NCBI RefSeq assembly: GCF_000718555.1
Contig: NZ_JOAN01000004.1
Coordinates: 124,001-188,000, forward strand
Direction: 5' to 3'
DNA from: Micromonospora chokoriensis
GTDB taxonomy: Bacteria > Actinomycetota > Actinomycetes > Mycobacteriales > Micromonosporaceae
Length of the DNA: 64,000 nucleotides
In this document: positions 48,496-51,563 of the stretch, piece by piece
How the letters are laid out: every line of letters starts with the position of its first letter
How positions within the stretch are numbered: the first letter of the stretch is position 1
Notes under the pieces: model-generated
What the model was told of the DNA's origin: nothing
Seen by the model: only the letters and a program-made list of their open reading frames with translations
Database searches by the model: none
Made by a program: the position numbers and the translations under genes

Positions 48496-49283
48496 GCCGC
48501 CGAGTTCTCCGCTCCGAGTTGCTGACGGAGAAAATCGATGTCGGCGGTCTGGCCGGCCACACCGCCCGGTGTCTCGACGACCACCGGTGCGCCGGCCGCC
48601 CGGATCACCGCTACCACCAGCTCCGGGTCGATCGTCCCGCCGCCCAGGTTGTCGTGTCGGTCCTGGCCGGAGTTGAACCCGCCCTTGGAGTTGTTGGCGT
48701 GCACCAGGTCGATCCTTCCGGTGATCGCCTTGACGCGGTCGACCAGGCCGAGCAGCTCCTCACCGCCCGCGTAGGCGTGGCAGGTGTCCAGGCAGAAGCC
48801 GACCTCGTGGTCGCCGATGGCGTCCCACAGTCGGGCGAGCGCGTCCAGCCGTCGGGCGCACGCGTTGTCACCGCCGGCGGTGTTCTCGATCAGGACCGGC
48901 ACGCCGAAGCCGCCGGAGTCAGCGGCGTACGCGAAGGTCTTGCGCCAGTTGTCGAAGCCGACGGCCAGGTCGTCGCCGGCGTTGACGTGCCCGCCGTGAA
49001 CGATCAGGCCCTTGGCGCCGATGGCGGCGGCCGCGTTGGCATGCCCGAGCAGCAGCTTTCGGCTCGGGATCCGGATGCGGTTGTTGAGGGTGGCCACGTT
49101 GATGACGTACGGCGCGTGCACGTAGAGGTCGACCTCGGCGGCGCGCAGCCGCTCGGCATCTTCCCGAGGCTTTGGCGCCTTCCACCCCTGTGGGTCGGAG
49201 AGGAAGAACTGCACGGTGTCGGCAGACCGGGAGGCCGCCTCCGCCAGCGGGTCGGTCGAATCGACGTGGGCTCCGATACGCAT
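48492..49283 (-). CDS. nfo: endonuclease IV (AP endonuclease)
   Basis: A 263-residue AP endonuclease of the Nfo family, which cuts at abasic sites in base-excision repair. The zinc-site segments are visible: [72 protein letters not shown] and VVVETPGG. It is slightly shorter than the E. coli enzyme. The ATG start encodes MRIGAHVDS, the family start. The last bases overlap the downstream membrane-protein gene, so they are translated together despite unrelated roles. Confidence 0.92.
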
Positions 49284-49598
49284 GCGAGCGAGCCTACGTC
49301 GCGACCCGCAGCGGCGGGTCGACGGCCGGGGCGGTGTCGCGTCACCGGATGGACCGACGATCGTTGATGTGTGTGAACCGGCGACCAGCACCCGGTGCCG
49401 CCAGCGGCGCGAGCGTCGCAGACGGCGACCCGGTGGTCGACGGCCGACAGCGAGGTCACCCCGCCGCGCGGCCCGGCGCAGCGGGGGCGACCCTTCGCAC
49501 CGCGAGTGCCGACCGATGAAGAATCTCGGAAATTTGTGCTTTTCCCCCCGACAAGGTACGAGTGCTGTTGTATCGTCAGATAACAACACGATAAAGCT

Positions 49599-49684
49599 CC
49601 GCGGGGCGTCTTCGGTCCAACCTCATCGGTGTGGTCGTTCCTCCCCAGGTCCCACCCAAGGAATGCGGACCAGACGCCCCGCGG
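49599..49684. repeat. long inverted repeat of unknown role
   Basis: The left arm (49599-49618, CCGCGGGGCGTCT then a two-base bulge and GGTCC) pairs with the right arm (49667-49684, GGACC AGACGCCCCGCGG). All 18 right-arm bases pair. The 48-base spacer is unpaired. It is too far from any gene end to be a usual terminator. Confidence 0.75.
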
Positions 49685-49856
49685 CCTTGTAGACGGGGGT
49701 CCACCACCCGGCCGATTGACGGCCGGACGGTGGGCTCCCGTCAGCACGTCCGGGTGTGCACCCGGCCCCCCGGGCATGATCGTTCGGACCGGGTATCCTG
49801 GTCAGGTTGTCCGCGTCCGGCCGGGTTCCCCCGGCGCGTGCGGGCAGCGACACAAG

Positions 49857-49901
49857 ACCTCCTGCCACGGAAGGACCGTGGCCGCTTAGCCCATAGGAGG
49901 T
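49857..49901 (+). ncRNA. S6:S18-type ribosomal protein leader of rpsF
   Basis: An outer helix pairs ACCTCCT (49857-49863) with AGGAGGT (49895-49901), which is the rpsF ribosome-binding site. An inner hairpin pairs CCACGG (49865-49870) with CCGTGG (49876-49881) around AAGGA. Directly after the inner helix comes CCG (49882-49884) in a 3'-side bulge. This layout matches the published S6:S18-binding mRNA motif, with its CCG bulge, through which the S6-S18 complex represses its own operon. The match is by eye. Confidence 0.8.
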
Positions 49902-49910
49902 GAGCACGTC

Positions 49911-50201
49911 TTGCGTCACTACGAACTAATGGTCATCCTCGACTCCAGCCTCGAGGAGCGCACCGTTGCACCGTCGCTCGACACGTACCTGAACGTGATT
50001 CGGACTGCGGGTGGCTCGGTTGAGAAGACCGACGTGTGGGGCCGTCGGCGCCTCGCGTACGAGATCAACAAAAAGGCCGAAGGCATCTACGCCGTCATCG
50101 ACCTGCAGGCCACGCCTGCTGCGGTGGCCGAGCTGGACCGTCAGCTGCGCCTCAACGAGTCCGTGCTGCGCACCAAGGTCATCCGACCGGAAATGCGCTA
50201 G
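49911..50201 (+). CDS. rpsF: 30S ribosomal protein S6
   Basis: A 96-residue small-subunit protein, partner of S18. It reads [23 protein letters not shown], then [29 protein letters not shown], the standard S6 pattern. The start is TTG with AGGAGGT nine bases upstream; that site is paired in the predicted leader helix. It opens the rpsF-ssb-rpsR-rplI operon. Confidence 0.97.
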
Positions 50202-50299
50202 AGCATCCAACCCCGGTTCGTCCGGATCAGCCTCCGCGACTCTGTCGTACGGCTCTGCGAGCCTGTAGGACGAGACGCTGAGTGCGCGAGGAGATGGTC

Positions 50300-50821
50300 A
50301 TGGCAGGAGACACCACCATCACGGTCATCGGCAATCTGACCGATGACCCCGAGTTGCGGTTCACCCCCTCCGGGGCTGCGGTCGCCAAGTTCCGAGTCGC
50401 TTCGACGCCCCGTTTCATGGACAAGGCGTCGAACGAATGGAAGGACGGCGAGCCGCTGTTCCTCGCATGCACCGTGTGGCGGCAGGCCGCCGAGCACGTC
50501 GCCGAGTCGCTGCAGCGTGGCGCTCGGGTGATCGTGTCGGGCCGGCTGCGTCAGCGGTCGTACGAGACCCGCGAGGGTGAGAAGCGCACCGTCATCGAGC
50601 TTGAGGTCGACGAGATCGGCCCGTCGCTGCGCTACGCCACGGCGAAGGTGCAGAAGATGTCCCGCTCCGGCGGCGGTGGCGGCGGCTTCGGTGGCGGCGG
50701 TGGCGGCGGCCAGGGTGGCGGCGGAGGCAACTTCGACGACCCCTGGGCTTCGGCTGCTCCCTCTCCCTCTCCCGCGCGTGCCGGTTCGGGCGCCAATTTT
50801 GACGAGGAGCCACCGTTCTAA
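50300..50821 (+). CDS. ssb: single-stranded DNA-binding protein
   Basis: A 173-residue SSB that protects single-stranded DNA. The OB-fold covers about residues 1-110 ([39 protein letters not shown], [16 protein letters not shown]). A Gly-rich linker follows, and the acidic tip ends NFDEEPPF, which recruits partner proteins. GAGGAG precedes the ATG at 50300. Its last base is shared with the rpsR start. Confidence 0.97.
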
Positions 50822-51102
50822 TGGCGCCTAGCGCTCGCGATCGCAAACCAGGAGCACGTGCAACGGCCAAGGCTGCGGCACTGCGCAAGCCCAAGAAGAA
50901 GGTGAACCCGCTCGACAAGGACGGGATCGCCTACATCGATTACAAGGACACCGCGCTGCTGCGCAAGTTCATCTCCGATCGCGGCAAGATCCGCGCTCGT
51001 CGGGTGACCGGCGTTACCTCGCAGCAGCAGCGGCAGATCGCCCGTGCGGTCAAGAACGCCCGTGAGATGGCGCTCCTGCCGTACACGGCCACCACCCGCT
51101 GA
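50821..51102 (+). CDS. rpsR: 30S ribosomal protein S18, zinc-free type
   Basis: A 93-residue S18, partner of S6. The conserved core [26 protein letters not shown] and [19 protein letters not shown] is present. The usual CxxC and later cysteine positions are gone: [11 protein letters not shown] stands where C+ forms have KKKVCxFC, and GVTSQQQRQ where they have GNCxQHQRD. There is no cysteine in the protein, so it is the C-minus, zinc-independent form. The start overlaps the ssb stop by one base. Confidence 0.95.
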
Positions 51103-51116
51103 GAGGAGGCACCGAT

Positions 51117-51563
51117 ATGAAGATCATCCTGACTCAGGAAGTGTCCGGCCTCGGTGCCCCAGGCGACATCGTCGAGGTCAAGAACGGCTACGGCCGTAAC
51201 TACCTGCTGCCGCAGGGCTTCGCGATCGTCTGGACCAAGGGCGCGGAAAAGCAGGTCACGGTCATCAAGCGGGCCCGTGGGGCCCGCGAGATCCGCGACC
51301 TCGACCACGCCAACGAGGTCAAGGCTCAGCTCGAGGGTCTGAAGGTCAACCTGAAGGTCCGCGCCGGCGACGGCGGACGGCTCTTCGGCTCGGTCACTCC
51401 GGCCGAGATCGTCGACGCCGTCAAGGCCGCCAGTGGCCCGGTCCTCGACCGGCGTCGGCTGGAGGTGCCCGGTCACATCAAGTCGATCGGCGCCTACCCG
51501 GTGAAGATCAAGCTGCACCCCGAGGTGACCGCGTCGTTCAACCTGAACGTCGTTCAGGGCTGA
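51117..51563 (+). CDS. rplI: 50S ribosomal protein L9
   Basis: A 148-residue large-subunit protein. The N-terminal domain [36 protein letters not shown] is diagnostic; a long helix and the C-terminal domain ([33 protein letters not shown]) follow. GAGAGGAGG precedes the ATG. It ends the operon before a strong terminator. Confidence 0.97.

Follow-up and report, generated by a model that had tools for sequence, protein, structure and literature searches.

An actinobacterial rpsF leader in Micromonospora chokoriensis is very probably an S6:S18 feedback switch of a known kind

The rpsF leader of Escherichia coli and Bacillus subtilis is said to bind the S6:S18 complex, reportedly in work of Matelska 2013 and Fu 2014. 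A CCG can be read at positions 719–721 of E. coli 16S rRNA, between helices h23 and h23a. According to Babina 2015 (PMC4647458), translation of rpsF in E. coli is repressed by S6 acting jointly with S18, and the putative Shine-Dalgarno sequence (SD) of the leader is located inside stem H1. The same study states that conserved cytosines matter and that K60 and R63 of S18 are needed for full regulation, and it names 16S C719, C720 and h23a in connection with the S18 contact. In PMC7247131, the S6:S18 rpsF leader is called very widespread in bacteria. A Chlorobi S6:S18 leader in that paper has the same proposed ligand and operon as the leader studied here and is described as not resembling rRNA.

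The window is a 64,000-nt stretch of contig NZ_JOAN01000004.1 of M. chokoriensis. The features at its rpsF locus are as follows.

49846–49857, + strand: possible 5' arm of an outer helix P0, AGCGACACAAGA, which could pair with the start region; a tentative feature, with duplexes for it and controls partly against it.
49857–49863, + strand: 5' strand of helix P1, the anti-SD ACCTCCT (core CCTCCT at 49858–49863), from sequence and fold.
49865–49881, + strand: hairpin P2, made of CCACGG (49865–49870), loop AAGGA (49871–49875) and CCGTGG (49876–49881), from sequence, fold and six covarying pairs.
49882–49884, + strand: near-invariant CCG that immediately follows P2, the putative contact of S18 and counterpart of 16S C719-C720-G721.
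49888–49893, + strand: conserved single strand AGNCC(A/G) before the SD, here AGCCCA.
49895–49901, + strand: 3' strand of P1, which is the rpsF SD AGGAGGT, from sequence, fold and alignment.
49908–49917, + strand: possible 3' arm of P0, GTC-TTG-CGT-C, with the start codon inside; tentative, with evidence both ways.
49911–50201, + strand: rpsF, ribosomal protein S6, TTG start, from the open reading frame and PF01250.
50300–50821, + strand: ssb (PF00436), with ATG at 50300 chosen and an alternative in-frame GTG at 50282 in the list of open reading frames.
50821–51102, + strand: rpsR, cysteine-free S18 (Pfam), the sole S18 found in the genome.
51117–51563, + strand: rplI, ribosomal protein L9 (Pfam).

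Pfam assignments on the open reading frames give the operon order rpsF-ssb-rpsR-rplI, with S6 and S18 sharing one operon. Among named matches to the S6 protein, the nearest are from Micromonospora. The rpsR start overlaps the ssb stop in TAATG at 50819–50823, which suggests translational coupling within the operon. The leader would be part of the 5' UTR of rpsF, in an operon with rpsR, which is the same place as that of the E. coli and B. subtilis leader. No sigma-70 promoter was found by a scan of 49560–50000. A long inverted repeat was also observed at 49690–49745, in the interval that separates rpsF from the divergent gene upstream.

The original prediction, made from the letters of the window, had proposed that ACCTCCT pairs with AGGAGGT around a six-base-pair hairpin followed by a CCG bulge, in the layout of the S6:S18-binding motif. 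This pairing within 49857–49901 was confirmed by sequence, by the isolated fold and by covariation. A single G at 49864 separates the anti-SD from P2, and CTTAGCCCAT occupies 49885–49894 between the CCG and the SD. The CCG is directly 3' of P2 as proposed, but it sits within a 13-nt unpaired strand between P2 and P1 (CCGCTTAGCCCAT, CCG included) and is not a bulge by itself. Two other proposals, that the leader contains the SD of a TTG-start rpsF and that the partner S18 is free of cysteine, also agree with the sequence.

When 49857–49902 was folded alone, P1 and P2 were both formed at −22.1 kcal/mol (z −3.20; 1 of 200 shuffles equally stable), with an additional pair 49864:49882 that uses up the first C of the CCG. 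When flanks were included (49840–49925; z −1.92, 9/200 shuffles equally stable), the minimum free energy fold kept the inner hairpin and moved the SD to an alternative hairpin. In an 84-nt context the fold with P1 forced reached −29.9 versus −33.1 kcal/mol for the minimum, about 3 kcal/mol in favor of the alternative for the window sequence, and the probability that the SD is paired was 0.48. Because the fold of one sequence is ambiguous, the comparison across relatives decides.

The rpsF leaders from the same class comprised 241 loci, namely 240 relatives and the window's own copy. Some entries are the same genome, and the distinct leaders number 219 by flanks and 172 by core. By script, the anti-SD was present in 241/241 leaders, as was an SD preceded by CC[AG], and in 235/241 the CCG was immediately preceded by a stem of 4 bp or more without interruption. 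The other six are L103 and L148, which have TCG, L215, which has one mismatch, and the long forms L150, L154 and L213. The covariation alignment contains 108 diverse leaders out of the 172 distinct cores; 57 cores were dropped as too similar, and another 7 because they carry long inserts or are long forms that had been cut wrongly.

With P1 and P2 imposed on the 108 leaders, 94.0% of cells were standard pairs, and 81 cells had changes on both sides, compared with 19.1 (sd 3.3) after shuffling; slid controls never exceeded 11. All six pairs of P2 showed double changes, with 99.8% of cells paired. For P1, changes on both sides were found in 2/7 pairs and 89.0% of cells were paired, a value lowered because the outermost A:U 49857:49901 pairs in 30/107 only; apart from that A, the 5' strand is paired across relatives. 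Constraint on the SD leaves P1 little room to vary: the pair 49860:49898 is U-A in 99 leaders, U-G in 5, C-G in 3 and A-U in 1, and 49858:49900 fails in 6. The CCG after P2 is near-invariant (TCG in 2/108 rows), and so is AGNCC, followed mostly by A, between the CCG and the SD; no pairing partner for this element (49888–49893) was found in the aligned leaders. RNAalifold, unprompted, returned P2 and five P1 pairs, without 49858:49900 and 49857:49901, and added 49864:49882, which would consume the first C of the CCG. These results indicate that both helices are backed by covariation, P1 less so than P2. The covarying pairs and conserved CCG anticipated for related leaders were thereby found, and the motif layout in a conserved, covarying rpsF leader is supported.

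Burial of the ribosome-binding site of a TTG-start gene and the lack of cysteine in S18 had together been taken to make this leader a useful variant of the autoregulation. Cysteine-free S18 was found in 131/131 Micromonosporaceae loci (S18 is partial in L054). In 108 loci of other Actinomycetes, S18 has CxxC in 69, no cysteine in 33, two cysteines in 4 and one in 2, and the anti-SD and SD are present in all of them, whatever the cysteine type. These counts indicate that cysteine-free S18 is a clade trait, which tracks the clade rather than the leader, and a variant defined by it was rejected. Novelty of the SD burial was also rejected, since PMC4647458 already reports a putative SD inside the E. 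coli H1 stem. The counterparts of E. coli S18 K60 and R63 are K and R in 233/239 loci by pattern, and the place of R61 is N in 232 loci, including the window, and T in one. The six pattern misses are KN[AS]R in L078, L110, L205, L235 and L237, and L206, which ends before the site. The residues for cytosine contact are thus conserved.

A match to the Rfam S6:S18 models had been named as a further check, and none was obtained. RF02893 (RpsF_leader), which has the same gene and presumed function, gave no match in 49000–51500 even at E 10, and none of the nine Rfam matches in this interval at E up to 10 was to a ribosomal leader. Six of the nine sit within 49671–49760 on the inverted repeat upstream of rpsF, which drew weak matches that are probably due to chance. 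Over the whole window there was no Rfam match at the gathering cut-off. The cut-off of RF02893 is 37 bits, and the E. coli positive control scored 110.1 bits. Weak matches were obtained in 12 of 21 genomes (own and relatives), 0/21 being above the cut-off, and 1/14 control genomes was above it. RF02893 is therefore a narrow model, to which the window leader cannot be assigned by the cut-off.

We built a covariance model from the 108 aligned leaders, including the window copy. The window scored 71.7 bits, being one of the model's own rows, and the next match in the genome had 18.5 bits. The E. coli leader was not matched, the best score of 12.3 bits being elsewhere in that locus. As there is no model match in either direction, the models give no evidence at the level of sequence that the window leader is homologous to the E. 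coli leader that was tested. With stricter filters and a limit of E 0.1, the model matched 61 of 119 genomes of the phylum and gave nothing in the other 58. The 29 new best-scoring loci all have rpsF directly downstream, and 20 of them are outside the class; being the best-scoring, these 29 are uninformative on the other matches and on the 58 unmatched genomes. Judged by eye, the 20 leaders from outside the class have UYCUGC-stem-GCCG-AGNCC-NN-RGGAGG in common, with AGNCC in 20/20.

In comparison with the E. coli and B. subtilis leader, an SD-containing stem (SD putative in E. coli), a hairpin, conserved cytosines and the S18 residues K60 and R63 are alike. The P1 strand AGGAGGT of the window is the SD nearest the start, with nine bases between it and the TTG at 49911. 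In the E. coli structure of Rfam, unlike in the window, the AAGGAG nearest ATG is held by an outer helix, GUUCCUU:AAGGAGC. The S6:S18 site of 16S rRNA (h22, h23, C719-C720-G721 and h23a) also has a stem, a hairpin and a CCG 3' of the hairpin, but only the CCG and the order of elements are in common, and the window leader has no hairpin after the CCG.

Judged by anatomy, the leader is a member of the class, because P2 is followed by the CCG, which matches the element order of 16S rRNA, and K and R of S18 are kept. We consider it highly likely that it represents the S6:S18-responsive rpsF leader in an actinobacterial form and represses by sequestering the SD. Sequence, conservation, covariation, operon and S18 contact residues were observed here, and S6:S18 binding, repression and coupling are carried over from the work on E. 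coli and B. subtilis. Once S6 and S18 outnumber 16S rRNA, the S6:S18 complex would bind P2-CCG-P1, and S18 would read the CCG of the leader in the way it recognizes C719 and C720 in 16S rRNA; the assignment of 49882–49884 as the S18 contact is taken from E. coli (PMC4647458). Binding would keep P1 closed, so that ACCTCCT would go on masking AGGAGGT and 30S subunits would be unable to load on rpsF. Translation of rpsF would then drop, and that of ssb-rpsR-rplI would drop too through coupling. The leader is thus very probably a feedback switch of the known kind, real and mostly ordinary, and the original prediction as a whole is partly supported.

An outer helix P0, in which the arm directly before the anti-SD pairs with GTC-TTG-CGTC, might bury the start codon along with the SD. 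For Micromonosporaceae, the mean duplex energy of 12-nt arms was −10.07 kcal/mol, compared with −5.54 (sd 0.33) for shuffled, −6.55 for reversed and −3.49 for far-upstream arms, and that of 15-nt arms was −10.24 versus −7.45 (sd 0.12) with swapped 3' arms. The duplexes of 54 distinct arm pairs ranged from −6.5 to −12.8, each pairing at least one base of the start codon, and 5' arms as different as GACGCACGA, GACACAAGA, CGTAAGAC and CGCAAG pair with the start region. In other Actinomycetes, 12-nt arms gave −8.54 versus −5.49 (sd 0.23) for shuffled arms, but reversed arms reached −7.52, and 15-nt arms gave −9.06, close to swapped (−8.43, sd 0.23, lowest −9.12) and reversed (−8.42) arms. The contiguous-helix score was above shuffles in both groups (14.79 versus 13.37, sd 0.31, in Micromonosporaceae; 14.25 versus 12.54, sd 0.23, in the others). 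However, when 3' arms were swapped, it stayed at 14.73 in Micromonosporaceae, where these arms hardly vary, and fell only a little, to 13.78 (sd 0.20, maximum 14.23), in the others.

Codon 2 of rpsF (49914–49916 in the window) is CGT in 199/225 distinct genes, and CGC is the commoner Arg codon elsewhere in rpsF. CGT at Arg codon 2 was found in 110/117 Micromonosporaceae versus 190/919 other rpsF Arg codons, and in 89/108 other Actinomycetes versus 175/740, which agrees with P0 but could also arise if weak bases are favored close to starts. The start codon was paired with probability 0.64–1.00 in 16 chosen leaders; in the P1-forced folds of these leaders, however, L016 and L073 take another register and L002 leaves 2/3 start bases open. 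In P1-forced folds of Micromonosporaceae the start codon was paired in 58/74 (0.78), against 0.76 (sd 0.06) with shuffled arms, and the energy was only slightly better (−30.94 versus −30.09, sd 0.35). In other Actinomycetes pairing was above shuffles (70/104 versus 0.47, sd 0.04), and the energy was worse (−30.98 versus −31.57, sd 0.27). P0 in whole-leader folds was set aside, as the control failed in Micromonosporaceae and was mixed in the others. The pairs flanking the GACGC:GCGTC core showed no covariation (25/49 paired, P 0.13). GACGC is within a local hairpin of at least 5 bp, with GAC in the loop, in 23/57 other leaders and 2/73 Micromonosporaceae, counts taken without a shuffle control, and such a hairpin is a competing reason for the conservation of GACGC. 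With mixed evidence and some controls against it, P0 is a possible helix to which we give somewhat less than an even chance.

A side observation concerns the same motif. GACGC recurs 5' of the anti-SD in L112–L142 (49/104 leaders versus 12% shuffled), and outside Micromonosporaceae it is often inside a small hairpin, such as TTGC-TGAC-GCAA in L134.

A strong hairpin P3 is predicted after the CCG in four named Catellatospora species, in L135 of another family and in 9/12 genomes of a third family, and neither sequence nor fold shows it in the window leader, which accordingly has no 16S-like P1-P2-CCG-P3 junction. The Catellatospora cases are six loci (L023, L030, L066, L068, L070 and L071), L023/L030 being apparently the same genomes as L066/L070; further P3-bearing loci are L141, L150, L154, L213/L284, L280, L282, L283, L285 and L286. 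In the third family, L279, L281 and L287 have no P3 by eye (the script found no AGGAGG there), and at least one genome, L029 (g15), of the same genus as L023 and L030, also has none. P3 varies with compensation in Catellatospora (GGGGCCGG/CCGGCCCC and GAGGCCGG/CCGGCCTC), and its sequence differs widely between genera of the third family. In several P1-forced folds P3 reaches into the CCG, its outermost pairs including the G (CG in L135). Leaders with P3 thus add a hairpin after the CCG, as h23a does in 16S rRNA. The Actinomycete leader might be a switch with two locks, P1 on the SD and P0 on the start codon and codon 2, together with a copy of the 16S junction through P3 in at least three families. 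On this proposal the nearly fixed CGT at codon 2 would be explained by P0 covering that codon along with the start, and the mRNA would copy the whole h22/h23/CCG/h23a junction, beyond CCG alone. We regard the combination as rather unlikely.

For the S6:S18-responsive leader itself, the conserved elements bear on whether a ligand is needed. The SD hairpin could passively lower translation or act like a thermometer without a protein ligand, conservation reflecting rpsF tuning only; in favor of this, P1 alone sequesters the SD in the short fold. Masking of the SD alone, however, would not require a conserved P2, CCG and AGNCC, and P2 is kept by compensatory change with a near-invariant CCG, also in the 20 leaders outside the class, which makes a passive hairpin improbable. 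Transcription attenuation or mRNA stability in place of SD access is still harder to believe, since a terminator scan of 49560–50000 found none on the + strand (two on the − strand) and the 3' half of P1 consists of the SD throughout the aligned leaders, although in E. coli the native transcript also drops upon S6:S18 overexpression (PMC4647458).

The two elaborations, P0 and P3, may be new. No description of an actinobacterial alignment, a start-codon helix or a post-CCG hairpin for the rpsF leader was found in the accessible text of literature including PMC4647458, PMC10931766, PMC7247131, PMC8388888, PMC8470358 and PMC7160235; the alignments of Matelska 2013 and Fu 2014 are outside this search, which does not prove absence in print. 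For the window locus alone, the outcome is close to expectation. An actinobacterial alignment with a sensitive model would permit annotation of the leader where Rfam misses it, and the presence and absence of P3 within one genus is a natural test of how closely an mRNA must copy rRNA for protein binding.
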